Positions 6,729 through 33,942 of a DNA stretch of 61,529 bases are shown in pieces. A program made the position numbers and the translations under genes. The notes beneath the pieces were generated by a model. That model made no database searches. It was not told the DNA's origin and saw only the letters and a program-made list of their open reading frames with translations. How positions within the stretch are numbered: the stretch's first letter is position 1; each line of letters begins with the position of its first letter. The stretch lies in NCBI GenBank assembly GCA_009701715.1, contig WLJO01000012.1, forward strand, positions 1 through 61,529, given 5' to 3'. This DNA is from Actinomycetota bacterium (GTDB lineage Bacteria; Actinomycetota; Acidimicrobiia; Acidimicrobiales; Ilumatobacteraceae).

Positions 6729-8172
6729 GACGACAGGTTTCCTGAAGTGGGATCGCCAGACGCCGAAGCGCCGTCCGGTTCCGGTGCGTCTGCGCGACTG
6801 GAAAGAGGTGTATGAACCCCTCGACGTGGAAGCACTCGCGCACCAGGCTGGGCGCTGCATGGATTGCGGTATCCCGTTCTGCAACAACGGGTGCCCGCTC
6901 GGGAACCTCATCCCGGACTGGAACGACCTCGTCTACCGGAATCACTGGCGCGAGGCGATCGACCGATTGCACGCAACGAACAACTTCCCTGAGTTCACCG
7001 GTCGGCTCTGCCCGGCGCCCTGTGAGAGCGCCTGCGTCGTCGGTATCAACTCCGACCCCGTCGCCATCAAGCAGGTCGAGGTTGAGATCATTGACCGAGC
7101 GTGGGCCGAGGGATGGGTGGAGCCGCAGGTTCCGAGCGTGCGGACCGGCAAGCGTGTCGTCGTGATCGGTTCCGGTCCGGCGGGTCTCGCTGCGGCACAG
7201 CAGCTGACGCGAGCCGGGCACGATGTCGTGGTACTCGAGCGATCGGACCGTATCGGCGGGCTGCTGCGCTACGGGATCCCCGAGTTCAAGATGGAAAAGC
7301 GTCACCTCGACCGTCGCCTCGAGCAGATGGAGGCCGAAGGGACCGAGTTCCGCGTCGGCGCCATCGTCGGCGAGAACGTCGACGCAGAGGTGCTGCTCGC
7401 CTCGCACGATGCCGTCGTCCTCGCGTGCGGGGCGACGGCCTGGCGTGACCTGTCGGTACCGGGTCGCGAACTGAGCGGCATCCATCAGGCCATGGAGTAC
7501 CTCCCGCTCGCCAACAAGGTGCAGGAGGGCGATCTGTCGGCACCCTCGATCGATGCCGGTGGCAAGCACGTCGTCATCATCGGCGGCGGCGACACGGGGG
7601 CCGATTGTCTCGGCACCTCGCTTCGCCAAGGCGCCGCAAAGGTGACCCAACTGGAGATCATGCCGGCCCCGCCGGAGACCCGTTCCGAGGCCAACCCGTG
7701 GCCGCAGTATGCGATGGTTATGCGCACGTCGTCCGCTCACGAGGAGGGCGGTGAGCGCGTGTACAGCGTGAACACCGAGCGCTTCGTCGATGATGGAGCG
7801 GGCAACGTCCGCGCGCTGCTCATCCACGAGGTCGCGATGCGGGACGGAAGGTTCGTCAAGGTTGAGGGCACTGAACACGAATTGCCGGCCGACCTCGTGT
7901 TCCTCGCGATGGGGTTCGTCGGCCCGGAGCGCGGTTCGTGGCTCGATCAACTCGGTGTCACGCTCGACGAGCGCGGCAACGTTGCGCGTGACGAGCACTA
8001 CATGACCAATATTCCCGGGGTCTTTGTTGCCGGTGACATGGGACGCGGTCAGAGCCTGATCGTGTGGGCAATCGCCGAGGGCAGGGCCTGCGCGGCAGGC
8101 GTTGATACCCGGTTGATGGGCGAGAGTCGGCTCCCTGTGCCGATCCCGCCGACTGCTCGGCCACTCGTCTGA
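6721..8172 (+). CDS. gltD: Glutamate synthase (NADPH) small subunit
   Basis: A 483-residue GltD that passes electrons from NADPH through FAD and iron-sulfur clusters to GltB. The N-terminal cluster cysteines are visible ([17 protein letters not shown] and [10 protein letters not shown]), followed by an FAD-binding GxGxxG ([15 protein letters not shown], about residue 143) and an NADPH-binding site ([12 protein letters not shown], about residue 284). The C-terminal [14 protein letters not shown] is typical of the family. It overlaps the gltB stop, so the two subunits are co-translated. Confidence 0.96.
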
Positions 8173-8205
8173 GCGGCGCGACACCACTGAAGCGCTCGGG
8201 CATAT

Positions 8206-8211
8206 TACGCT
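8206..8211 (+). promoter_or_regulatory. TACGCT -10 box, leaderless start of LysM gene
   Basis: TACGCT lies 8 bases before the ATG at 8220, and no Shine-Dalgarno is visible. Confidence 0.45.
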
Positions 8212-8219
8212 CAATCCCG

Positions 8220-8807
8220 ATGTTCCTCCGGCTGTTCCGTGTTGCCGCGCCCGTGATGTTGGGTGCTGCGGTGCTCGGTGCTTGTGCCGGGTCGTCGTCG
8301 GGCACGGAGACGACGCTGTCGCCGAATGCCACGGCATGGCGAACCGTCCCGCCCGTGTTGGCCACGGCCATCCCCACTTCGCTCTCCATAGCGAACGTGC
8401 AGTACACGGCCAAGCAGGGCGACTACGCCAACAGCATCGCCTCGATAGCGGGTGGGGGCTGCTCGGGTGCGGAGATCCTTGCGGCGAACCCTGGGGTCAC
8501 CACGATCAATGCAGGCGACCTCATCAACGTGCCGGCGAACTGCCTCGGCCCGGGCGTGACCGAGGACATCCTCAACGGAACCGTCATCCCTGAGACCAGC
8601 ACCCCCAAAGAGGACAAGACCACCACGACGGCCGAGGAGACCTACAACACCTTCGTCGTGAAGTCTGGCGACTTCTGGGTCCGTATCGCCCGGCGGACGG
8701 GTTGCACCTACCGTCAGCTCAAGGCGGCGAACCCCGGTGTCACCAAACTCTTCCCGAAGCAGGAGCTGAAGGTGCCCAGGTCCTGCGACACCCGCAAGGA
8801 CCAATAG
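8220..8807 (+). CDS. LysM-domain lipoprotein
   Basis: A 195-residue lipoprotein. The signal peptide ends in a lipobox (VLGACAG, cysteine at about residue 21), followed by a Thr/Ser-rich stretch. Two LysM-like units follow: about residues 60-105 (YTAKQGDYANSIASIAG ... LINVPANC) and 142-190 (FVVKSGDFWVRIARRTG ... LKVPRSC). LysM units bind peptidoglycan glycan chains, so this is probably an envelope-anchored cell-wall binder. Each unit carries a cysteine pair, which suggests an internal disulfide. No enzymatic domain is present. Confidence 0.8.
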   Translation: MFLRLFRVAAPVMLGAAVLGACAGSSSGTETTLSPNATAWRTVPPVLATAIPTSLSIANVQYTAKQGDYANSIASIAGGGCSGAEILAANPGVTTINAGDLINVPANCLGPGVTEDILNGTVIPETSTPKEDKTTTTAEETYNTFVVKSGDFWVRIARRTGCTYRQLKAANPGVTKLFPKQELKVPRSCDTRKDQ

Positions 8808-8844
8808 CACTGAGGGAAGCGGGCCCACCAGTCGCCGGCGCACG

Positions 8845-8850
8845 TAGTGT
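8845..8850 (+). promoter_or_regulatory. TAGTGT -10 box, leaderless start of hydrolase
   Basis: TAGTGT lies 8 bases before the ATG at 8859. It favours that ATG over the GTG at 8847, which overlaps the box. Confidence 0.45.
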
Positions 8851-8858
8851 TCTCCGGT

Positions 8859-9905
8859 ATGGGGATCGAATCGCAGTTCGTCCAGACCGTGGACCTCAGG
8901 GTGCACGAGCGGGTCTCCGGCCCGACGGACGGCCATCCGGTGGTCCTGCTCCACGGGTTCCCGCAGACCAGTTACCAGTGGCGTCACCAACTGACCGCAC
9001 TGGCCGACGCCGGGTACGCGGGATACGCGCCGGACAACCGGGGATTCGGCGGCACGGACAAGCCGGGCGCCCGTGTGAGTCGGGCACTGCTCGCTCAGGA
9101 CGTCATCAACTACCTCGATGCCAAGGGGATCGAGCGCTGCACACTCGTTGGCCACGACTGGGGCGGCATCATCGCGTTCAAGACCGCAATCGATTACCCG
9201 GACCGAATCGAGCGGCTCGCCCTCATTGACACCTTGTGCACCGTGTGGACGTCGGTAGGGCCGCACGGATGGTGGTTCAAGGCACCGGGGATCGCGGAGG
9301 AGTTCTTCGCGAAGTATCACCGTGAGTTCATCGAGGTCATGTTCGCGGGGAGGGACGCATCCGTGCTGGGGGACAGGCCCCTGAACCCGTGGGGCCAGAT
9401 CCCGAACGGTGTCCGGCCCCGGCCCGACTGGATCGACGACGAGGCGCTGGCCCACTACGTCGACGCGTTCTCGGACCCGTTGGTCTGGGAGCACGCAATC
9501 AGTTACTACCGATATGCACTCCCGTTCCACGAGGTACTCGAAGATCCCACGAGGGCGTGCGGCGAGCGCTACCGGTCCCTCTCCGAGCAGGATGTGGCCG
9601 ACTACTGGCTGCACCCCGCGGGCATGGAGAAGAACCCAGCGTGGCCGCGCTTTGCGGACTACGGCCCCGAGGACCGCCACAAGCAGTTCCCGAAACCGAC
9701 ACTGTGGCTGTACGGCGGCTACCTCGGGGGTTCGATGGAGGAGGGGCGGACGGCAGTACCCGCAGGGAACCCCTTCCTCGACCAGTTCGCCCGCTACTTC
9801 CCCGACCTCCGCGCACGATCTGTCGGTGGTGGACACTTCCTCGGCGAGGAGTGTGCGGGCTACGTCAACGACTGCCTGCTGAGGTTCCTCTCTGGGGCGC
9901 TCTAG
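8859..9905 (+). CDS. Alpha/beta hydrolase, epoxide hydrolase/dehalogenase-like
   Basis: A 348-residue alpha/beta hydrolase. It has the HGFP oxyanion motif at residues 32-35, a nucleophile elbow GHDWGG with Asp100, and a C-terminal histidine in VGGGHFLGEE. An aspartate nucleophile is the mark of epoxide hydrolases and haloalkane dehalogenases rather than serine esterases. The cap region contains tyrosines (YYRYALPFHEV) that could be the ring-opening residues of an epoxide hydrolase. The substrate is unknown. Its stop codon shares the palindrome CTAG (9902-9905) with the convergent gene. Confidence 0.8.
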   Translation: MGIESQFVQTVDLRVHERVSGPTDGHPVVLLHGFPQTSYQWRHQLTALADAGYAGYAPDNRGFGGTDKPGARVSRALLAQDVINYLDAKGIERCTLVGHDWGGIIAFKTAIDYPDRIERLALIDTLCTVWTSVGPHGWWFKAPGIAEEFFAKYHREFIEVMFAGRDASVLGDRPLNPWGQIPNGVRPRPDWIDDEALAHYVDAFSDPLVWEHAISYYRYALPFHEVLEDPTRACGERYRSLSEQDVADYWLHPAGMEKNPAWPRFADYGPEDRHKQFPKPTLWLYGGYLGGSMEEGRTAVPAGNPFLDQFARYFPDLRARSVGGGHFLGEECAGYVNDCLLRFLSGAL

Positions 9906-11074
9906 GCGCGCGGCCAGATCACCTTGCCGTCGGCGTTGTAGATGCCCGCGAGGACGCTCGGGTCGACGAGGCCATCAGTGGAGGGTGTCCCACCCTCGGT
10001 GAACACGCCGGCCTTTGCGTAGGCGTCGATCTCGGCCTGCAGGCCAGCGACGTCGGGCATTCCGAACGGGGTGCCCTGTGGCGTCAGGCTCTTGATGAGC
10101 GCCGACTCGGTCTGCCAGCGGAACTTCTCGCCGTCAGGTGACAGGAAATTCGGGTTCCCGCCAGCGGTGATGGCGTCGACGCAGATCTGTGCGGCACCGT
10201 CGGGATCGGCCAACGCATCGGCGAGACCCAACATCACCGCACGCATGAAGTCCTGCGCAGCCGTCGGGTGGGCGGCGAGGAACTCCTTGTTCGTGTAGAT
10301 GAGGCCAAAGGATCCGGGGATCTGCTCGGCGGTGGGATCGAACGTGTTGAATGTGATGTCCGCGGCCTGCAACTGGCCGGGCTCGTTGGACTTCCAGCCG
10401 GGGAACGTGACGATGCTCGGCAGTGCGATGTGCACCTTCGGGTCGAAGCCGTCGATGAGCACCGTCTTGTAATCGGTTCCCTCCACGAGGCTGTGGCTCG
10501 CGAGGAGTGCCTTGATCGAGGAAGGCAGCTTGCCCTTCACACCGATCGTGGTGCCCTTGAGGTCCTCGTACGTGGCGACGAACTCCTTGCCGATGAGCAC
10601 GTCGATCGCCGTGCGACCATCAACGCTCATCCCGACGAGGCTGGCGCCGTTCGCAGCCGAGAACTCGGCGAGTTCGGTGAAGGAACCGGAGGACGAGAAC
10701 TGCGCCTTGTTGCCCGCGACGAGCGGGTAGTTCGCAGTAGAGAACGAGGGCTTCAGATCGACCTTCAGGCACATCTTGTCGAAGTAGCCCTTGTTCTGGG
10801 CCACGACGACCTCGACGATGGATGCCGCAGCAGCGAAGTCGAACCCGGTCAGGTAAGTGATGGTGCCGGCATCCTTGTTCGCCTGACAGCGCTCGGCGCT
10901 GATACCGGACTCGCTGACGCCAGCGGGCTCGGTTGTCGGGGTGGCTTCGGTGGTCGGCGTTGCCGTGGAATCGGTGGCTGCCGTGGTGGGCGAGGATGAC
11001 TTGCTACCGCACCCTGCCGCGCCGAGCGCGACCGATACAGCGAGGACGATCGTGATCGTGCGCTGATGAGTCAT
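9902..11074 (-). CDS. NMT1/THI5-like ABC substrate-binding lipoprotein
   Basis: A 390-residue periplasmic-type binding protein with a lipobox (LGAAGC), a Thr/Pro-rich linker and then an NMT1/THI5-like fold starting at ITYLTGFDFAAAASIVEVVVAQNKGYF. The family feeds NitT/TauT-type importers of nitrate, sulfonates, thiamine precursors or aromatic compounds. The ATG at 11074 follows a GGAGG Shine-Dalgarno. It is the last gene of a four-gene minus-strand operon (ATPase, permease, chorismate mutase-VOC, binding protein). I cannot tell the ligand; the neighbour suggests an aromatic or chorismate-related acid, by inference only. Confidence 0.85.
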   Translation of the reverse strand: MTHQRTITIVLAVSVALGAAGCGSKSSSPTTAATDSTATPTTEATPTTEPAGVSESGISAERCQANKDAGTITYLTGFDFAAAASIVEVVVAQNKGYFDKMCLKVDLKPSFSTANYPLVAGNKAQFSSSGSFTELAEFSAANGASLVGMSVDGRTAIDVLIGKEFVATYEDLKGTTIGVKGKLPSSIKALLASHSLVEGTDYKTVLIDGFDPKVHIALPSIVTFPGWKSNEPGQLQAADITFNTFDPTAEQIPGSFGLIYTNKEFLAAHPTAAQDFMRAVMLGLADALADPDGAAQICVDAITAGGNPNFLSPDGEKFRWQTESALIKSLTPQGTPFGMPDVAGLQAEIDAYAKAGVFTEGGTPSTDGLVDPSVLAGIYNADGKVIWPRA

Positions 11075-11141
11075 GGGGAACCTCCGTGAACGTGGGAAAA
11101 AACTGGTACTCACTGCGCCGGGAGGTGCATCCCGGCCGGGC

Positions 11142-11915
11142 TCAGCTCCGCATCGCGCGGAACAACGACAGCACATTCGTCGCCCCGAAGCCCACGCGGT
11201 GCCCGGTGCGGGATAGAAACCCGAACTGGACCCCGGTCGCCTCGTCGTGGACGGTGAAGAACTGTTCGTGCCCCTGGGCATCCACGACGACCTCGGTGAG
11301 GAGCGGTGCGTCGAGCGCGTCGAGTGCCGCACGCGCATAGCCGGCGTTGAGCACCTCGATGCTGATGTGCTGTACCCCTGCGCCGTACTCGTCGAGGTAC
11401 GCGGCCACCTCCGGCCCGGCATCCCGGCTGACGAGCACGATGTGCACGCCACCGGCGGCGACGGCGGCCATGCCGGTGCCGGTCTCGGCCATGGCCTCGT
11501 CATGGAAGCCGAGCCGGTCGACGAGGGCTGAGCGCGCTGCCTCGAGGTTCTCCACCGCGACGACGATGTGGTCGATGCGGCTCGCTACCGTGTCGAGGCC
11601 GCTGCGGTCCCCCGTCACGGCCTCTTTCGTGGGGGCGGGCTCCGGCCGAGACCGTGCAACCTCGATGCGGTGCGTCTCGGTCAGCAGGACCCTCACGATC
11701 TGCTCCGCGAAGTCCGGGTCCACCCCGGCGTCGATGGCCCACTGGCGTCGGGTGTCGATGACCGTACGCACGCGCGCAGGTTGGATGATCGGGGTGTCGT
11801 CCTGCTCCTTGAGATGGGCAACCTCGTGGCACACCTCGAGCCGTGCGGCAAGGATGCGTACGAGTTCCTGATCAAGTTCGTCGATGCGGGATCGGAGATC
11901 TGCCAAGGTCGTCAT
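11142..11915 (-). CDS. Chorismate mutase (AroQ) fused to an HPPD-like VOC domain
   Basis: A 257-residue two-domain protein. Residues 1-88 match the AroQ chorismate mutase helices (LRSRIDELDQELVRILAARLEV); Arg8, Arg25, Lys36 and Arg48 align with active-site residues of the E. coli enzyme, but the Glu52 position is Val49. Residues 113-257 match the C-terminal half of 4-hydroxyphenylpyruvate dioxygenase: His116 (IDHIVVAV), His183 (VQHISIEV) and the end GFGATNVLSLFRAM. The third metal ligand, normally Glu in FFEVIQR, is Gly232 (QFGFLSR). It may therefore be a binding or isomerase domain rather than a normal dioxygenase. It lies 38 bp after a permease gene inside an ABC operon. Confidence 0.8.
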   Translation of the reverse strand: MTTLADLRSRIDELDQELVRILAARLEVCHEVAHLKEQDDTPIIQPARVRTVIDTRRQWAIDAGVDPDFAEQIVRVLLTETHRIEVARSRPEPAPTKEAVTGDRSGLDTVASRIDHIVVAVENLEAARSALVDRLGFHDEAMAETGTGMAAVAAGGVHIVLVSRDAGPEVAAYLDEYGAGVQHISIEVLNAGYARAALDALDAPLLTEVVVDAQGHEQFFTVHDEATGVQFGFLSRTGHRVGFGATNVLSLFRAMRS

Positions 11916-11953
11916 CGACCTTGACGGTAGCCGCCGGGGCTAGGTGACGCCCC

Positions 11954-12739
11954 TCAGGCTGCCGGGCGGCGTTCGGAGGCATGCCAGTGGAGCACCCGGG
12001 AGCGGAGGGTGGCGAGTGCGAGCATGCCGACCACGCCGAGGGCCGCCATGCAGAACACCACGGCCCAGACCCCGTTCGCGTTGTTGAACGAGGCGTAGCG
12101 CTTGCCCCAGGCGCCGAGGCCGCGAGTGACGAGCGCGTACCCCTCCACGAGATAGGCGATGACGAGGGAGAGACCGATGTTCCAGCGAGCCGCGGTGAAC
12201 AGTGACGGCAGTGCTGCGGGCAGTCGCAGCCGCCAGAGGACCTCCCAGCGGCTCGCGTCGACGGACCGGAGCAGCTCCCGGGATGCGGAGTCGGCCGAGC
12301 GCATCCCGTCAGCCGCGGCGATTACGAACGCGGGCAGGCATGCCAGTGCAATGATGAACTCGATGGGCCTCCATCCGGCGCCGAGCCAGAGGACAGCCGA
12401 CGGTGCGTACGTGGCGAACGGTGTGACCATGACGAGCACGAGGACCGGGGTCGACGCTGCGTCGAGGATGTTGCTCGCCGCCATTGCGGCTCCCCAAAGA
12501 ACGGCGATCACGAGGGCGATAAGGAAGCCCACGAGCGCCTCCCTGCCGGTGGTCAGTGCCTGGGTCCAGTAGAAGCGTGGTGCCTCCCAGATGTCGTGGA
12601 GAGCCTGGCTTGGGGCGCGCAGCACGAAGGGCCGGATGTGGAGCGACCTGACCAGCAGTTCCCACAGGCCGAAGAACACCGTGAGCCCGATGAGGCCAGC
12701 GAGGGCCCGTTCGCTGCCGCGGAGCGGTCGGCGGTTCAT
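11954..12739 (-). CDS. NitT/TauT-type ABC transporter permease
   Basis: A 261-residue permease with about six hydrophobic segments and a conserved cytoplasmic EAA-type loop (ASRELLRSVDASRWEVLWRLRLPAALP). This is the BPD_transp_1 family partnering NMT1-like binding proteins. Its ATG overlaps the stop of the ATPase gene by 4 bases, so the two are co-translated. Substrate unknown. Confidence 0.9.
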   Translation of the reverse strand: MNRRPLRGSERALAGLIGLTVFFGLWELLVRSLHIRPFVLRAPSQALHDIWEAPRFYWTQALTTGREALVGFLIALVIAVLWGAAMAASNILDAASTPVLVLVMVTPFATYAPSAVLWLGAGWRPIEFIIALACLPAFVIAAADGMRSADSASRELLRSVDASRWEVLWRLRLPAALPSLFTAARWNIGLSLVIAYLVEGYALVTRGLGAWGKRYASFNNANGVWAVVFCMAALGVVGMLALATLRSRVLHWHASERRPAA

Positions 12740-13497
12740 CGTCCGGCCCCGTCCCGCAGCGCTGTCCGCAACTGCGTCTCGACGGCGAAGAACGCGACGT
12801 CCTCCTCGAGCCCGGACCGTCGAGGCCTCGGCAGGCCCACGGGCACGATCGAGTGGATCCTCCCGGGTCGGGGGGTCATGACCACGACCCGGTCCGACAC
12901 GAAAGCAGCCTCGGCGATCGAGTGGGTGACGAACAGCACCGTCGCCCGCGTGCGCTCACAGAGCGAAACGAGGAGGTGTCGCATGTCCTCGCGGGTCATC
13001 TCATCGAGCGCGGCGAAGGGTTCGTCCATCAGCAGCAGCGGGGCATCGAGGGCAAAGGCCCGCACGAGCGCCACGCGTTGTTGCATCCCGCCGGAGAGTT
13101 CGTGCGGGTACGCGTCAGCGAAGGCGTCGAGGCCGACCTCACGGAGCAGTTCGTCCACGTCGGTCCGCAAGGTCGTCGCCGTCGCGGATCGGTTGACGTC
13201 GAGCAGGAGACGGGCATTTGCACGCACCGTCCGCCAGGCGAGCAAGCCGGGCGACTGTGGCACGAGGCCGACCCGCTTGGCCCGGCGGGCGGCGGCCGGG
13301 GGGAGTCCGTCGACGAGGACCGAACCGTCCGAGGCCGGCTCGAGGCCGCCGACGATGCGCAGCAGTGTGGTCTTGCCACACCCTGACGGTCCGAGCAGGG
13401 TGACCACCTCCCCGGACTCCACCGTCAGGTTGACCGGGGCGAGCGCCTCGACGGGACCGAACCGCTTGGTGAGGCCCGTAATACTGACTGCGGTCAT
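12736..13497 (-). CDS. NitT/TauT-type ABC transporter ATPase
   Basis: A 253-residue ATPase with Walker A (GPSGCGKTT, about 37-45), Q-loop (VPQSPGLL), ABC signature (LSGGMQQRVALVRA), Walker B (LLLMDEPFAALD) and H-loop (VTHSIAEA). It is the first gene of the operon. No clear TANNNT start box or Shine-Dalgarno is seen. A GGGGTACCCC palindrome lies about 66 bp upstream (13563-13572) and could be an operator. I see no CTGAGA core of a TPP riboswitch upstream, which argues against a thiamine-controlled system. Confidence 0.92.
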   Translation of the reverse strand: MTAVSITGLTKRFGPVEALAPVNLTVESGEVVTLLGPSGCGKTTLLRIVGGLEPASDGSVLVDGLPPAAARRAKRVGLVPQSPGLLAWRTVRANARLLLDVNRSATATTLRTDVDELLREVGLDAFADAYPHELSGGMQQRVALVRAFALDAPLLLMDEPFAALDEMTREDMRHLLVSLCERTRATVLFVTHSIAEAAFVSDRVVVMTPRPGRIHSIVPVGLPRPRRSGLEEDVAFFAVETQLRTALRDGAGR

Positions 13498-13644
13498 GTC
13501 GGCGGGGTTCCCATGGTGTCCCGCATGCTAATTACCGGTTGGGCACCCCGACCGGCCGGCTGGGGGTACCCCACCCCGGAGCCGCATCGGCGCTGGTCAG
13601 GGCAGGCAGGGATCGGGGTGCGGCACCGGCCTGCGGCCGCATCT

Positions 13645-13753
13645 CGCCCACTTTTGGTGGGCGCGCTGGTATCTTGGTTGGGTCCGAAGCGGCCAACCCT
13701 GCTCCGTGATGCCGATGAGACAACCGTCTCCGGCGCCCCTCCTTCCAGGAAGG
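13645..13753 (+). promoter_or_regulatory. Folded 5' leader region of rpsO
   Basis: Four inverted repeats follow one another: CGCCCAC/GTGGGCG with a 5-base loop (13645-13663), GGTTGG/CCAACC (about 13676-13698), GCCG..GAGAC/GTCTC..CGGC (13711-13734), and CCTTCC/GGAAGG (13741-13753), whose right arm is the Shine-Dalgarno. S15 commonly represses its own mRNA through such leaders; that this one does is inference. Confidence 0.4.
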
Positions 13754-13760
13754 CCTCATC

Positions 13761-14024
13761 ATGACCATGCCCGACAAGCAAGCAGTCATCGGCGACAACA
13801 AGCTCCACGGCACCGACACCGGTTCCCCCGAGGTGCAGATTGCGCTGCTCAGTGCGCGCATCAACCAGCTCACGGACCACTTGAAGTCCCACAAGAAGGA
13901 TCACCACACTCGTCGTGGTCTGCTCATGCTCGTCGGTCGCCGGCGCCGCATGCTCGACTACGTGAAGGCCAACGACATTGCGCGTTACCGCGCAATCGTG
14001 GCCAAGCTCGGCCTGCGTCACTGA
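13761..14024 (+). CDS. rpsO: 30S ribosomal protein S15
   Basis: An 87-residue S15 with the conserved helices ([42 protein letters not shown]). It binds 16S rRNA in the small-subunit platform. The ATG at 13761 has GGAAGG 7 bases upstream; an internal ATG at 13767 (MPDKQ) could also serve. pnp follows, the usual bacterial order. Confidence 0.96.
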
Positions 14025-14031
14025 AGTAGGC

Positions 14032-14088
14032 CTGACCGGCGGGTATGCGCCACTTCGGCGCCGCAACCTGCTGAAGTACCGGGGTCAG
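14032..14088 (+). ncRNA. Structured element 1 in rpsO-pnp spacer (Actino-pnp candidate)
   Basis: An outer stem CTGACC(GG)/(CC)GGTCAG encloses GGT..GCGCC-ACTTC-GGCGC..ACC. The position, in the 5' leader of pnp in an actinobacterium, fits the known Actino-pnp motif, but I could not run a covariance search. Confidence 0.4.
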
Positions 14089-14143
14089 CGCCGTCCGGCG
14101 AAGACCCCACCAATCAACACACCGGAGCGATTCGTCCGGTTGT

Positions 14144-14196
14144 CAGTCGCCAGTCCTCCGTTCGCCATCACGGCGATCGTGGAGGCTTGCCGACTG
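14144..14196 (+). ncRNA. Structured element 2 in pnp leader, long interrupted hairpin
   Basis: A long hairpin with matched arms in order: CAGTCG/CGACTG, CCTCC/GGAGG and GCC/GGC around a 5-base loop, separated by near-symmetric internal loops. Long leader hairpins upstream of pnp are RNase III targets in other bacteria; the role here is inferred. Confidence 0.4.
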
Positions 14197-14236
14197 GGAA
14201 CCGGGGCGCTCCACCAAACACATAAAGGAGCATGGA

Positions 14237-16687
14237 ATGGCTGACGCCATCCGCGTGTCGGGTCCCGTTGGGGGCACCGACAAGACCCTGTCGTACGAGA
14301 CCGGCAAGCTGGCTCTGCAGTCCCAGGGGGCTGTGGTGGCCTCCATCGGGCGCACCACGGTGCTTGCGACTGCAAACGCCGCAAAAGACGTCCGTGACGG
14401 CATCGATTTCTTCCCGTTGACGGTCGACGTCGAAGAGCGTGCATATGCCGCGGGCAAGATCCCCGGCTCGTTCTTCCGCCGTGAGGGTCGTCCCACTGAG
14501 GACGCAATCCTCACCTGCCGCCTCACTGACCGTCCGCTGCGCCCGGCCTTCCCCGATGGCTACCGCAACGAGACCCAAGTGGTCATCACGGTACTCGGTG
14601 CCGATCAGGCGAACCCGCACGACATCCTGTCCATCAACGCCGCATCCGCGTCGTTCATGATCAGCGGCATCCCGTTCGACGGCCCCATCGGCGCCGTGCG
14701 TCTGGCCTACAGCCAGTCTGGCGAGTGGATCCCGCACCCCACGTTCGAGGAGGGTGACGACTCGACATTCGAACTCGTCGTCGCGGGCCGCGAACTGGAC
14801 AACGGCGACGTCGCCATCATGATGGTGGAGGCAGGTGGTACGGAGAAGTCGTACTCGTACTACGAGAACGGCGCACCGAAGGTGACCGAAGAGGTCATCG
14901 CCGGCGGTCTCGAGGCCTCGAAGCGCTGGATCAAGGAATCGATAGCGCTGCAGAAGCAGCTCGTTGCAGCAGTCATTGCTGCGAAGGGTTCGATCACGCC
15001 GCTGTCCTACAAGCCGGTTCTCGACTACGGCGACGACGTCGGCGCCGGCGTCAGCCGTGTGGTCGGCGACAAGATCGCCAAGGCGATCACCATCTCGCTC
15101 AAGTCCGAGCGCAATGCCGCTACTGACGCCGCTACGGCCGAGGCTGTTGCCTCGCTGGCCGGTACGAAGGATGCACCGGGCGAGTTCGCCGGCCGCGAGA
15201 AGGAGATCAAGGAAGCCGTTCGCAGCCTCACCAAGCAGCTCGTCCGCAAGCGCGTGGTGGAGGAAGGTGTTCGCATCGACGGCCGTGGTCCCACGGACCT
15301 CCGTCCGGTCTCGGCCGAGATCGGTGTCCTCGACACGGCGCACGGCTCTGGCCTGTTCCAGCGCGGCGAGACCCAGGTGCTCAACGTCACCACACTCGCC
15401 ATGCCGCGCATGAACCAGCTGCTCGACACGCTCACGCCAGAGAAGCAGAAGCGCTACATGCACCACTACAACATGGCCCCGTGGGCAAACGGCGAGACCG
15501 GCCGCGTCGGTTCGCCCAAGCGCCGCGAGATCGGTCACGGTGCGCTCGCGGAGCGTGCGCTGCTCCCCGTGGTCCCGAGCCAGGAGGAGTTCGCCTACAC
15601 GCTGCGCCTCGTGTCCGAGGTGCTCGCCTCAAACGGTTCCACCTCAATGGCCTCGGTCTGCTCGAGCAGCCTGTCGCTCATGGACGCCGGAGTGCCGATC
15701 AAGGCGCCGGTGGCCGGCATTGCCATGGGCCTTATCTATGCCGAGGGCAAGTACACGACGCTCACCGACATCCTCGGTGCAGAGGACGCATTCGGCGACA
15801 TGGACTTCAAGGTTGCCGGAACGGCAGATTTCGTCACCGCCCTGCAGCTCGACACCAAGATCGAGGGCATTCCCGCCGACGTGCTTGCCGCTGCCCTGCA
15901 GCAGGCGAAGGAAGCACGACTCGCGATCCTCGCCGTGATGAACAAGGCCATTGCCGCACCGCGTTCGTCGGTTCGTGACACTGCGCCGAAGATCGTCAAC
16001 TTCACCATCCCGCTCGACAAGGTGGGCGAGGTGATCGGGCCGAAGGGCAAGGTCATCAACACCATCCAGCAGGAGACCGGTGCGGATATCGCCATCGACG
16101 ACGACGGCGTGTTCGGCATCGTCACTATCGGTTCCACCGACAGCGACAAGGTGGAGGCAGCCCGCGAGCGCATCCTCATGATCGTTGATCCGCCCAAGGC
16201 AGAGGTGGGCGCCACCTATGCAGGTCGGGTTGTCAACATCACCAAGTTCGGTGCGTTCGTCAACATCCTCCCGGGCCGTGACGGCCTCGTGCACATCTCC
16301 AAGCTCGGCGGCGGCAAGCGCATCAGCCAGGTGGAGGACGTGCTCAGCCTCGGTCAGGAGATCCAGGTGGTCGTGGACGAGATCGACGAGAAGGGCAAGG
16401 TTTCCCTGAGCCCCGTCGGCCTCGAGATCCCCGACTCCGCTGTCTCCAGCGGCGGTAGCGGCGGCGGTGATCGCGGTGGAGACCGCGGCAGCGGTGCAGC
16501 CCGGGGCGTGTCGTTCGAGGATTCCTTCGACAGCGAAGCACGTGAGATTTTCGGTGACCTCGGTCCGGGTGGCGAGGCCTCCGGTGCGGATCGTGGCGGC
16601 GATCGCGGTGGAGACCGCGGCGGCGATCGCGGTGGAGACCGCGGCGGTCGCAGCGGCGGCGGGGACCGTGGTCGGCGCCATCGCTGA
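14237..16687 (+). CDS. pnp: Polyribonucleotide nucleotidyltransferase (PNPase)
   Basis: An 816-residue PNPase, the phosphorolytic 3'-5' exoribonuclease of mRNA decay. Two RNase PH-like domains (about 1-230 and 310-550) flank the all-helical domain, followed by a KH domain (IGPKGKVINTIQQETGA, about 598-614) and an S1 domain (YAGRVVNITKFGAFVNILPG). The C-terminal 75 residues are a Gly/Asp/Arg-rich tail with GGDR repeats, absent from E. coli PNPase and probably RNA-binding or disordered. The ATG at 14237 has AAAGGAG upstream. It overlaps the next gene by 20 bases. Confidence 0.97.
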   Translation: MADAIRVSGPVGGTDKTLSYETGKLALQSQGAVVASIGRTTVLATANAAKDVRDGIDFFPLTVDVEERAYAAGKIPGSFFRREGRPTEDAILTCRLTDRPLRPAFPDGYRNETQVVITVLGADQANPHDILSINAASASFMISGIPFDGPIGAVRLAYSQSGEWIPHPTFEEGDDSTFELVVAGRELDNGDVAIMMVEAGGTEKSYSYYENGAPKVTEEVIAGGLEASKRWIKESIALQKQLVAAVIAAKGSITPLSYKPVLDYGDDVGAGVSRVVGDKIAKAITISLKSERNAATDAATAEAVASLAGTKDAPGEFAGREKEIKEAVRSLTKQLVRKRVVEEGVRIDGRGPTDLRPVSAEIGVLDTAHGSGLFQRGETQVLNVTTLAMPRMNQLLDTLTPEKQKRYMHHYNMAPWANGETGRVGSPKRREIGHGALAERALLPVVPSQEEFAYTLRLVSEVLASNGSTSMASVCSSSLSLMDAGVPIKAPVAGIAMGLIYAEGKYTTLTDILGAEDAFGDMDFKVAGTADFVTALQLDTKIEGIPADVLAAALQQAKEARLAILAVMNKAIAAPRSSVRDTAPKIVNFTIPLDKVGEVIGPKGKVINTIQQETGADIAIDDDGVFGIVTIGSTDSDKVEAARERILMIVDPPKAEVGATYAGRVVNITKFGAFVNILPGRDGLVHISKLGGGKRISQVEDVLSLGQEIQVVVDEIDEKGKVSLSPVGLEIPDSAVSSGGSGGGDRGGDRGSGAARGVSFEDSFDSEAREIFGDLGPGGEASGADRGGDRGGDRGGDRGGDRGGRSGGGDRGRRHR
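16595..16642 (+). repeat. Two perfect 24-bp tandem repeats in the pnp tail
   Basis: A 24-bp unit encoding GGDRGGDR is repeated exactly at 16595-16618 and 16619-16642. A diverged copy lies near 16461-16495. The array sits in the tail-coding part of pnp and could change length by slippage. Confidence 0.8.
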
Positions 16688-17933
16688 TCCCGCAATCTCT
16701 CTCACCACACTGTCGAGTGGGCTCCGGATCGTGTCTGAACACGTCCCCGGAGCCCTCTCCGTTTCTGCCGGTGTGTGGGTAGGGGTCGGGGCTCGCGACG
16801 AGCCGCAGGCGATCTGTGGTGTGTCGCACTTCCTCGAACACCTGCTGTTCAAGGGGACCCACCGTCGCAGTGCCCGCGAGATCGCGACCACCGTGGATCG
16901 TGTGGGCGGCGACATGAACGCGTTCACCGCGAAGGAATTCACTGCCTACGTGTGCCGTGTGCCCGCAGCGCATGTGGAGCTGTCGCTCGACGTGCTCGGT
17001 GATGTCATCACCATGCCGGCGCTGCGCGATGCCGACGTGGAGAGCGAGCGCCAGGTGATCCTCGAGGAACTGGCGATGGACGAGGACACACCCGACGACA
17101 CCGCGTACCGCCTGTTCAGCGCGGCCTTGTTCCCGCAGCACCCGCTCGGTAGGGAGACCGCGGGCGAGGTCGACACGGTCCGCTCCATCAAGCCGGACGA
17201 TGTTCGCGATTTTTTCGGCCTGAACTACCGGGCCGGCAACATGGTGCTGGCCCTCGCAGGTCCGGTTGGCCACGCAGACGTCGTTGCGTTTGCGGAACAA
17301 CATTTCGGAGCGCTCAGTGCCGGAAAGGCCGAGTTCGAGCGCGAGCGGCCCTCTGACGCTGTAGAGGCGGTTGCGGGGGAGCAGCGGGACTGCGAGCAGG
17401 TGCACCTCCTTGTCGGGTGTCGGGCGCTTGAGCGCACTGACCCCGGCCGCGAGGCACTTGACATGGTGATGCATGCGCTCGGGGGTGGGCCGTCGAGCCG
17501 GCTCTTCCAGACGATCCGCGAGGAGCGGGGCCTCACGTACAGCACCTATGCGAGCGCATCCGCGTACGCGGACGCAGGGCTCGTCGGTGCCTATGCCGCC
17601 ACGAACCCGGAGACCGCCGCCGAGGTGCTCGGGTTGCTCGAGGCCGAGATCAACGCAGTCATCCGGGATGGCATCACCGACGATGAACTGGCGATCGCCA
17701 AGGGGTATCTCACGGGAGCCTTCGCGATGGGGTTCGAGGGAACCGGCTCGCGGTCCGAACGTCTCGGTTCGTCGTTCACGAACTACGGGCACATCCGCCC
17801 GGTGGACGAGCAGGTTGCACGGTGGCAGGCGGTCTCGCTTGCCGACACGCGCAACGTGATTGAACGGGTGTTCGTGAATCCGCGTGTGCGGTGTGCCGTC
17901 GGCCCGGTCGACCTGAAGTCCCTCCTCGCCTGA
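16668..17933 (+). CDS. M16 family zinc metallopeptidase
   Basis: A 421-residue M16 (pitrilysin/processing-peptidase-like) protein. The inverted zinc motif HxxEH is His54-Phe-Leu-Glu57-His58 (GVSHFLEHLLFKGT), with the downstream glutamate in ERQVILEELAMDEDTPDD. The second half carries the family's GGGPSSRLFQTIREERGLTYS. I chose the GTG at 16668, inside the end of pnp, because it gives the standard N-terminus. A pnp-M16-dapB order is common in actinobacteria. The substrate is unknown; no signal peptide is seen, so it is probably cytoplasmic. Confidence 0.9.
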   Translation: MVGAIADPAISLTTLSSGLRIVSEHVPGALSVSAGVWVGVGARDEPQAICGVSHFLEHLLFKGTHRRSAREIATTVDRVGGDMNAFTAKEFTAYVCRVPAAHVELSLDVLGDVITMPALRDADVESERQVILEELAMDEDTPDDTAYRLFSAALFPQHPLGRETAGEVDTVRSIKPDDVRDFFGLNYRAGNMVLALAGPVGHADVVAFAEQHFGALSAGKAEFERERPSDAVEAVAGEQRDCEQVHLLVGCRALERTDPGREALDMVMHALGGGPSSRLFQTIREERGLTYSTYASASAYADAGLVGAYAATNPETAAEVLGLLEAEINAVIRDGITDDELAIAKGYLTGAFAMGFEGTGSRSERLGSSFTNYGHIRPVDEQVARWQAVSLADTRNVIERVFVNPRVRCAVGPVDLKSLLA

Positions 17934-32640: not shown

Positions 32641-33942
32641 GTGAACAAACGGTTCTTCGTCGAGACCCTCGGGTGCCCGAAGAACCAGGTGGACTCCGAC
32701 AAGTTGATCGGCACCCTGCTCGCCGATGGCATGCAGCCGACGGACGACGTTGCTGAGGCCGATCTGGTGGTCGTGAACACCTGCGCCTTCATCGACGAGG
32801 CCCGGCGCGAATCGATCGACACCATCCTTGCGCTCGACGACCAGCGCAAGGAAGGCGCCCGCCTGGTGGTCACGGGATGTATGGCTGAGCGCTATGGGGC
32901 CGAGCTCGCCGAGGCGCTGCCGGAGGTCGACCAGGTGGCGGGCTTCGGCGTTCCGGTGACGCTCGGTCGCAAGTCGCTCGGTGTGTCGCCCGCGGGTCCG
33001 GCCCCGATGCTCGATCTGCTCAACCTGCCGCGGCCCAAGTCCAACTCGCCGTGGGCATACGTAAAGATCGCGGAGGGTTGCGACCGGTCGTGCGGGTTCT
33101 GCGCGATCCCTTCGTTCCGCGGGCCCCAGCGCAGCCGGGACGTGTCGTCGATCCTTGCGGAGGTCGAGTCGCTCGAGGCCCGCGAGATTGTGCTTATCGC
33201 CCAAGACCTCGCTTCGTACGGCAAGGACCGTCCCGACGAGTTGGGGGCCGGCTCGATCGTTTCGCTCGTACGGGCAGTTACGGAAAGGGCCGACTGGGTC
33301 CGCCTGTTGTACCTGTATCCCTCGGACCTGTCGGACGACCTAATCGACGCGGTCATCTCCACCGGCGTGCCGTACTTCGACCTCTCGCTCCAGCACGTCT
33401 CCAAGCCGTTGCTCCGCCGCATGCGTCGATGGGGTGACGGTGAGCGCTTCCTGCGCCGCATCGCTGACATCCGGGATCGGGCACCTGAGGCAGCGTTCCG
33501 CTCCAATTTCATTGTCGGCTACCCCGGCGAGACCGAGCGCGACCACGACGAGCTGCTGGCCTTTGTGGAACAGGCACAGCTCGACTGGTGCGGCTTCTTC
33601 GCGTACTCACCCGAGGAGGGCACCTATGCGGTGGGCCTCGACGGCGCGGTCGACGCCTCGCTGATGAACGAGCGGCTCAACGAACTCCGTGAGATGCAGG
33701 ACCGCATCACGGCCGGGCGCCGCGACCTGCTCATCGGTTCGGTCCAGCGTGTGCTCGTCGATCTGCCCGGCACCGCACGGTCCACACGGGAGGCGCCCGA
33801 GATCGACGGCATCATCGAGGTTCCCGAGGATCTCGCCGTCGGCTCGTTCCACGAGGTGGAGATCGTCGAGGCAATGGGCCCGGACCTCGTGGGGCGCCCG
33901 CTACTGTCGTTGGCGGGATGTCCGACGAATCATGAGCAATGA
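32641..33942 (+). CDS. rimO: Ribosomal protein S12 methylthiotransferase RimO
   Basis: A 433-residue radical-SAM methylthiotransferase. The N-terminal domain holds three cluster cysteines (TLGCPKNQVDSD, VVNTCAFIDEA, VTGCMAERY), followed by the radical-SAM CxxxCxxC (GCDRSCGFCAIP, about 149-156) and a C-terminal TRAM-like domain. TLGCPKN and the short length favour RimO over MiaB. The stop overlaps pgsA by 11 bases. Confidence 0.92.
   Translation: MNKRFFVETLGCPKNQVDSDKLIGTLLADGMQPTDDVAEADLVVVNTCAFIDEARRESIDTILALDDQRKEGARLVVTGCMAERYGAELAEALPEVDQVAGFGVPVTLGRKSLGVSPAGPAPMLDLLNLPRPKSNSPWAYVKIAEGCDRSCGFCAIPSFRGPQRSRDVSSILAEVESLEAREIVLIAQDLASYGKDRPDELGAGSIVSLVRAVTERADWVRLLYLYPSDLSDDLIDAVISTGVPYFDLSLQHVSKPLLRRMRRWGDGERFLRRIADIRDRAPEAAFRSNFIVGYPGETERDHDELLAFVEQAQLDWCGFFAYSPEEGTYAVGLDGAVDASLMNERLNELREMQDRITAGRRDLLIGSVQRVLVDLPGTARSTREAPEIDGIIEVPEDLAVGSFHEVEIVEAMGPDLVGRPLLSLAGCPTNHEQ

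Follow-up and report, generated by a model that had tools for sequence, protein, structure and literature searches.

An AroQ chorismate mutase of Acidimicrobiales fused to an HPPD-like VOC domain that lacks the iron-ligand glutamate: a candidate regulatory domain

The residues with which 4-hydroxyphenylpyruvate dioxygenase (HPPD) binds iron are established, and the HPPD-type pocket binds aromatic 2-oxo acids; prephenate and 4-hydroxyphenylpyruvate are both made in the phenylalanine and tyrosine branch. HPPD-like domains occur in fusion proteins, the dehydroshikimate dehydratase of P. putida being described as one (excerpt of PMC8264583, citing Peek et al. 2017). AroQ enzymes are themselves frequently fused or held in complexes, which allows control of their activity (excerpts of PMC10520331). 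The position of Glu52 in the E. coli enzyme (EcCM) is occupied by glutamate in about 80% of AroQ proteins and by valine in 8%; the latter include PchB, an isochorismate pyruvate lyase, and *MtCM, a genuine mutase with side lyase activity (excerpts of PMC12329711), so Glu52 is not obligatory for a mutase.

Here we describe a gene combining an AroQ domain with an HPPD-like VOC domain, found in a window of 61,529 nucleotides (contig WLJO01000012.1, assembly GCA_009701715.1) from an actinobacterium of the family Ilumatobacteraceae. The AroQ-VOC fusion gene is real: the open reading frame at 11142-11915 on the minus strand starts with ATG and encodes 257 amino acids. Its parts are as follows.

11142..11915, minus strand: AroQ-VOC fusion gene, 257 amino acids plus stop (open reading frame list, Pfam, genome search)
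11646..11906, minus strand: AroQ chorismate mutase domain, residues 4-90 (Pfam, 1ecm match, alignment)
11145..11594, minus strand: HPPD-like VOC domain, residues 108-257 (Pfam, profile and structure alignments)
11568..11570, minus strand: His116, under the first HPPD iron ligand
11367..11369, minus strand: His183, under the second HPPD iron ligand
11220..11222, minus strand: Gly232, under the HPPD ligand Glu

The first domain matches Pfam CM_2 (PF01817) at residues 7-85 (70.2 bits, cut-off 27). The second belongs to the VOC superfamily, as indicated by matches over the cut-offs of two Glyoxalase-clan models, Glyoxalase_4 (PF13669; residues 115-216, 30.6 bits, cut-off 27) and Glyoxalase (PF00903; 24.3 bits, cut-off 20.6), which together span residues ~113-224, and by its predicted VOC fold. 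In a model of moderate confidence predicted from 78 sequences (mean pLDDT 80.3, pTM 0.58; an earlier model from 23 sequences had mean pLDDT 81.4 and pTM 0.67), residues 1-93 matched E. coli chorismate mutase 5vht with a VIA-align Z of 11.8, a value for which the tool advises caution with helical bundles, and residues ~103-257 matched VOC structures with Z of about 12-15. The architecture named in the original prediction, AroQ followed by an HPPD-like domain, was borne out by Pfam and by profile alignment with the C-terminal half of HPPD.

The same architecture turned up in other genomes as a clade-wide family. A scan of a species-genome collection, which looked only for two AroQ-domain peptide patterns, returned 144 relatives, and all of the best 80 of the 144, which were retained, have both domains (80/80). 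These 80 are titled Acidimicrobiales, Ilumatobacteraceae or unspecific actinobacterial bins, and some carry clearly odd species labels, Bifidobacterium breve among them. Of 396 genomes sampled across the phylum and scored on the best 6 candidates per genome, 6 reached 1e-20, all in the window's family, and a sample of 298 genomes of the order, scored on the best 8 candidates per genome, gave 8 full-length matches, 7 in the window's family plus one in genome G040. Judging by database titles, the fusion is carried clade-wide by Acidimicrobiales, mostly Ilumatobacteraceae. The G040 protein (L023/L049) was the sole fusion found outside the family; it is 46% identical, has GLEE for GHEQ, and lies on a contig of 5.5 kb on which no flavin genes were seen.

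We surveyed chorismate mutases in 61 genomes, the window's own and 60 relatives. The fusion was found in 24, a free AroQ in 14, the unrelated AroH in 21 and none in 2, and no genome had two types. The fusion genomes are 23 of the 37 in the window's family plus G040 of another family (the fusion of G030 is split across two contigs), and the free AroQ genomes are 13 in the window's family plus G039. All 14 free AroQ frames end 84-95 codons past the domain start and are therefore without a following VOC domain. A second PF01817 or PF07736 gene was found in none of the 24 fusion genomes. Since no genome has more than one mutase type, the fusion appears to stand in place of the ordinary mutase. The two genomes in which no mutase was detected are G022 (91% complete) and G037 (84%).

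The next enzymes of the pathway are encoded separately. TyrA was over the cut-off in 57 of the 61 genomes and a separate prephenate dehydratase in 56 of 61, and every fusion genome (24/24) has TyrA, prephenate dehydratase or both. No prephenate dehydratase match was found in G000, G005, G006, G007 and G037. The first of these is the window's own genome (97.35% complete), and both of its genus mates (G001/G002) have one; because genus mates of G005 and G007 (G031, G032) do as well, these are likely assembly gaps. We considered whether the VOC domain might be a general substitute for prephenate dehydratase and rejected this on the separate gene in 56 of the 61 genomes, though none was matched in G000.

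In the AroQ domain, residues were examined in an alignment of 78 members, consisting of the window's protein, 71 of the best 80 loci (the other 9 were omitted by hand for brevity) and 6 of the 24 fusion-genome loci. Arg8, Arg25, Lys36, Arg48 and Glu85 are invariant (78/78). We take the first four to be the catalytic R11, R28, K39 and R51 of EcCM, with numbering from the match to 1ecm (query 4-55 = chain 7-58) and Glu85 placed by extension. At the position of E. coli Glu52 the AroQ-typical glutamate is missing and all 78 have valine (Val49). The free AroQ proteins retain glutamate there (14/14) and look like a different lineage from the AroQ domain of the fusion. The best NCBIfam model, TIGR01803 CM-like, presumably the subfamily of PchB and its relatives, scored 63.6 bits, below its curated cut-off of 73.35, and PchB was among the best PDB matches. 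From these residues and from its standing as the sole mutase detected, we consider it very probable that the fusion has chorismate mutase activity.

The identity of the VOC domain was pursued by aligning it with HPPD, HmaS and other VOC enzymes. A VOC profile of 39 sequences (every second row of the 78-member alignment) was compared by forced global HHalign with the C-terminal half of 9 HPPDs (9 of 12 loci from related genomes, 3 having been missed by a motif filter), with the HPPD N-terminal half, and with 1 of 7 methylmalonyl-CoA epimerase (MMCE) sequences. The respective probabilities and scores were 96.7 and 54.0, 88.6 and 38.8, and 96.0 and 50.2, which rank the templates only roughly because template lengths differ. 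The best alignment pairs the VOC domain with the His of 'IDH', the His of 'GVQH' and, over Gly232, the Glu of 'FFE' of HPPD. It also pairs the C-terminal 'GFG.GN..ALFEAI' helix, Gln218 with the Gln of LLQIF, Arg236 with the Arg of IIQR, and Asn247 and Phe252 with GNFKALF.

HmaS (2r5v) was the best PDB match to the VOC profile, which hit both of its VOC modules significantly (28.2 and 24.9 bits); a further, C-terminal stretch, insignificant alone at 3.1 bits, placed FFEVIER over QLGFISR. The predicted model gave a tie between the HmaS N-domain (VIA-align Z 14.8) and C-domain (3zgj; Z 14.5, 145 residues aligned, up to residue 257). The top Foldseek ranks went to a VOC protein of unknown function and MMCE, with HPPD and HmaS from rank 10, and single-sequence NCBIfam matches point to MMCE and the N-terminal, not the C-terminal, HPPD domain. 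As these other methods favour other templates or tie, it is the profile alignment that carries the C-terminal assignment; it favours, with reservations, placing the VOC domain on the HPPD C-terminal domain. MMCE was not preferred as the closest relative, by a small margin (50.2 against 54.0, with one MMCE sequence, and with Foldseek putting MMCE above HPPD); what tipped the choice towards the HPPD C-domain was the C-terminal helix and the GVQH motif that it has in common with the fusion. The fusion falls short of the whole-family models TIGR01263 for HPPD (30.4 bits, curated cut-off 277; one VOC domain where HPPD has two) and TIGR03081 for methylmalonyl-CoA epimerase (35.3 bits, cut-off 114.95). 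We also rejected the VOC domain as a copy of the host's HPPD: HPPD was over the cut-off in 0 of the 24 fusion genomes. Within the family it was over the cut-off only in G009 and G021, both with a free AroQ.

The VOC domain lacks the full 2-His-1-Glu iron site of HPPD. As the original prediction had it, two histidines align with HPPD iron ligands and the third ligand, a glutamate, is replaced by Gly232, and the alignment extends all three points to the family: His116 is kept in 78 of 78 members, the window's included, His183 in 75 (Gln in 2, Arg in 1), and position 232 has Gly in 68, Ser in 10 and the HPPD glutamate in none. The absent carboxylate at 232 is thus, across the aligned sequences, a fixed trait of the AroQ-VOC family. 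Residue 160, which aligns with a glutamate of human MMCE that we take to be a metal ligand, is Val in 76, Ile in 1 and Ala in 1, so that by alignment a non-ligating residue also occupies the ligand position of the domain's first half. The ten relatives with Ser232 are L112, L113, L117, L119, L120, L124, L127, L128, L133 and L145. Two of them, L128 and L133, combine Ser232 with Gln for His183, as though their site had moved still further away from binding a metal.

An acidic ligand elsewhere in the domain was also considered. Six positions are acidic in at least 74 of 78 members (Asp108, Asp115, Glu187, Asp212, Glu217 and Asp224). Asp115 is common to HPPD; Glu187 (Glu in 70, Asp in 8), Glu217 (78/78) and Asp108 (77/78), the last of which lies ahead of the barrel, are not. 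Glu187, Glu217 and Asp108 align with no HPPD ligand position. The VOC domain may have a relocated carboxylate, but Glu217 probably faces away from the pocket, because Gln218 and Phe220 are constant and 219 is variable, in keeping with the HPPD strand, whose Gln and second Phe are turned towards the site.

Other pocket-type residues are kept, Gln218 in 77, Phe220 in 76, Arg236 in 78, Asn247 in 75 and Phe252 in 77 of 78, and Gln230 and Val/Ile248 stand where the aligned HPPD residues are phenylalanines. Pairwise identity averages 0.66 for AroQ, 0.60 for VOC and 0.49 for the linker. Against two genus mates, dN/dS was 0.05 and 0.13 for VOC and 0.06 and 0.09 for AroQ, values safe in direction only because dS is ~1 to 2. 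By these measures both domains look constrained, and the VOC domain looks unlike a decaying relic. Losing the glutamate while keeping the His, Gln, Phe and Asn residues fits a role in binding better than one in redox chemistry, and it is very likely, given the substitution in every member, that the domain has lost HPPD activity.

In the window, the fusion lies on one strand between the permease and binding-protein genes of an NMT1-type ABC importer.

11954..12739, minus strand: ABC importer permease (BPD_transp_1; NCBIfam TauC, SaoP, NtrB), upstream of the fusion
12736..13497, minus strand: ABC importer ATPase, whose gene shares 4 bases with the permease gene
9902..11074, minus strand: NMT1/THI5-like substrate-binding protein, downstream of the fusion

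The location in an ABC importer operon, part of the original prediction, holds in this window, but it is only one of two common settings of the family. Among the best 80 of the 144 relatives, with contexts read from tblastn, the first recognized gene met upstream on the same strand, within 1.5 kb, is riboflavin synthase in 34 and an ABC permease in 23 (FO synthase 2, other or none 19, contig end 2), and the nearest within 2.5 kb downstream is FO synthase in 46 and a binding protein in 26 (other or none 4, contig end 4). RibE, FO synthase or RibF is nearby in 69 of the 80 loci, and in 11 none was seen within the stretches examined. Measured between alignment ends, fusion and riboflavin synthase lie a median of 17 bases apart, and the two overlap in four loci. 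On contigs that are long enough, the block usually sits between rpsO/pnp and ribF-truB-rbfA. NCBIfam supplied the names FO synthase CofGH (1018.1 bits), riboflavin synthase, RibF and TruB; other neighbours are presumably RpsO, Pnp, RbfA, DapB and GltB/D, assigned by recognition. The settings meet in L096 and L040, where the order is ribE, ATPase, permease, fusion, binding protein, FO synthase (with kilobase gaps in L040). Of the block, the window has the importer alone; ribE and FO synthase sit elsewhere in its genome, on other contigs. Genome G023 has two CofG-type FO synthase matches over the cut-off, on contigs C5 and C26.

No genes of the riboflavin/FO block were found near the free AroQ genes in the 14 stretches examined. 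At 4 of these 14 loci (L051-L064), a weak relative (27-30%) of the window's gene at 32641-33942, whose product we take to be MiaB/RimO-like, is nearby.

The importer matches the taurine/nitrate/sulfonate family in Pfam and NCBIfam. RibXY, a riboflavin importer of this class shown in Chloroflexus, was also found in Actinobacteria with an FMN riboswitch (excerpts of PMC4418817). Riboflavin synthase was below the cut-off in 6 of the 10 importer-type fusion genomes (G001, G010, G012, G013, G016 and G034; present in G000, G017, G020 and G023) and in 4 of the 14 importer-free ones (G002, G004, G030 and G040), a difference too small to settle the importer's substrate. Because riboflavin synthase is missing in those 6 of 10, the importer may be RibXY-like, and a RibXY-like riboflavin importer is a fair guess for 9902-13497. 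No FMN riboswitch or other Rfam family was over the gathering score in 8 loci, and Rfam gave no match to E 0.5 in window positions 8000-17000. We did not adopt a RibY identity for the binding protein, to which the sole pointer was one weak PDB match (4nmy), the riboflavin synthase pattern being too slight.

Our preferred reading of the whole, to which we give an even chance, is a housekeeping chorismate mutase with a regulatory, HPPD-derived VOC domain. The AroQ domain would convert chorismate to prephenate for phenylalanine and tyrosine. The VOC domain, of the HPPD/HmaS type, would have ceased HPPD chemistry with the loss of the carboxylate needed for the Fe(II) site, would keep a small-molecule pocket, and would tune the mutase as a non-redox ligand-binding domain, playing the part that ACT plays in E. 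coli PheA. We propose a sensor domain replacing ACT because the pocket residues are kept, the glutamate is lost and AroQ enzymes are often controlled by a domain or partner. Candidate ligands would be an aromatic 2-oxo acid (prephenate or 4-hydroxyphenylpyruvate), tyrosine, or a flavin/deazaflavin metabolite, as suggested by the location of the gene with ribE and FO synthase. The name of the NCBIfam model for CofH states both substrates, tyrosine and 5-amino-6-ribitylaminouracil, a riboflavin precursor, and a mutase beside FO synthase would stand upstream of the tyrosine supply. Taken by itself, the ligand-binding regulatory role, which is drawn by analogy, could equally well prove right or wrong; it corresponds to the non-catalytic sensor that the original prediction had offered as an alternative, and is the option we favour.

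The VOC domain might instead be mainly structural, binding no small ligand and serving to stabilize or oligomerize the mutase or to dock FO synthase, riboflavin synthase or another partner. We regard this as doubtful but worth keeping in view. Adjacency speaks for it, with ribE nearest upstream in 34 of 80 loci and FO synthase nearest downstream in 46, as does the AroQ-delta mutase of M. tuberculosis, which needs a partner enzyme for full activity (excerpts of PMC10520331). Such a role would leave unexplained why the pocket-facing His116, His183, Gln218 and Gln230 are kept in 74-78 of 78 members while neighbouring positions vary.

We think it unlikely that the VOC domain is a working enzyme, making the protein bifunctional, with a 2-His metal site or a carboxylate from Glu217 or Glu187 acting on prephenate or a related 2-oxo acid from AroQ. 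The retention of His116 (78/78) and His183 (75/78), the constant Glu217 and the acidic residue at position 187 in 78 of 78 would suit such an enzyme, and prephenate, being a 2-oxo acid, belongs to the class of ligands that HPPD chelates. Against this, all 78 members have lost the third ligand, 3 of them have Gln or Arg in place of His183, and Glu217 seems to point away from the pocket, judging by the constant Gln218 and Phe220 around a variable Phe219. The known next steps, TyrA and prephenate dehydratase, are encoded elsewhere. A bolder form, in which the carboxylate-free 2-His site diverts prephenate or oxidizes or halogenates an arylpyruvate in connection with deazaflavin (F420) supply, seems to us quite improbable. 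The original prediction had speculated on a parallel with Fe(II)/2-oxoglutarate halogenases; a halogenase-like open metal site finds no support here, since the likeness is the Gly substitution alone, Ser replaces Gly in 10 of 78, and these halogenases have a fold other than VOC.

Least probable of all is that the AroQ domain is an isochorismate pyruvate lyase or aminodeoxychorismate mutase of a specialized pathway, for although Val49 replaces Glu52 in all 78 fusions while all 14 free AroQ proteins retain glutamate, PchB is among the best PDB matches and TIGR01803 (63.6 bits) is the best NCBIfam model, that score is under the 73.35 cut-off, the 24 fusion genomes have no other PF01817 or PF07736 gene and each has TyrA, prephenate dehydratase or both, and *MtCM is a true mutase despite its valine (excerpts of PMC12329711).

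If the preferred reading of a regulatory VOC domain is true, the fusion would represent a new way of controlling the phenylalanine/tyrosine branch point, with a degenerate HPPD-type domain replacing ACT, and a clean natural example of a metallo-enzyme fold turned sensor. Aromatic amino acid synthesis is tied by position to riboflavin and F420 genes, which makes sensing of flavin/deazaflavin supply by the mutase a testable idea. Were the 2-His-site reading true, the VOC domain would be the first enzyme of the HPPD fold in which a coordination site is open, and it would work in tandem with a chorismate mutase. We found no description of an AroQ-VOC fusion in the open-access literature searched; within that scope, the fusion is an undescribed, clade-wide form of chorismate mutase.

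Among known systems, the fusion resembles E. coli PheA (AroQ-PDT-ACT) and TyrA (AroQ-PDH) in joining AroQ to a second domain at the phenylalanine/tyrosine branch (excerpts of PMC10520331), as AroQ-DAHP synthase fusions do as well, going by PDB titles. In none of the three is the partner a VOC domain, and in the fusion genomes TyrA and prephenate dehydratase are separate genes. PchB serves siderophore synthesis and *MtCM is an exported mutase, and both, unlike the fusion, are without a VOC domain. They share with it the valine at the E. coli Glu52 position of the AroQ fold (excerpts of PMC12329711).

On the VOC side, the fusion shares with the C-domain of HPPD and HmaS the fold, the two His ligands, GVQH, the Gln of LLQIF, the Arg of IIQR and the C-terminal GN..ALF helix, and differs in its single VOC domain against two, the change of Glu to Gly/Ser, the attached AroQ, and a score of 30.4 against 277 bits. 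MMCE shares the VOC fold, scores nearly as high as the HPPD C-domain in the profile comparison and ranks above HPPD in Foldseek, but its structural alignments stop at residue 236-240, short of the C-terminal helix. The further ligand positions of MMCE are, we assume, filled, whereas both are non-ligating in the fusion. The structure search also matched 5hmq, titled a TIM barrel/HPPD fusion protein (Foldseek). This dehydroshikimate dehydratase is likewise a shikimate-related enzyme with an HPPD-like C-terminal domain, and it differs in having another enzyme fold and serving another pathway; an HPPD-like domain on a shikimate-related enzyme therefore has a precedent, on another enzyme.
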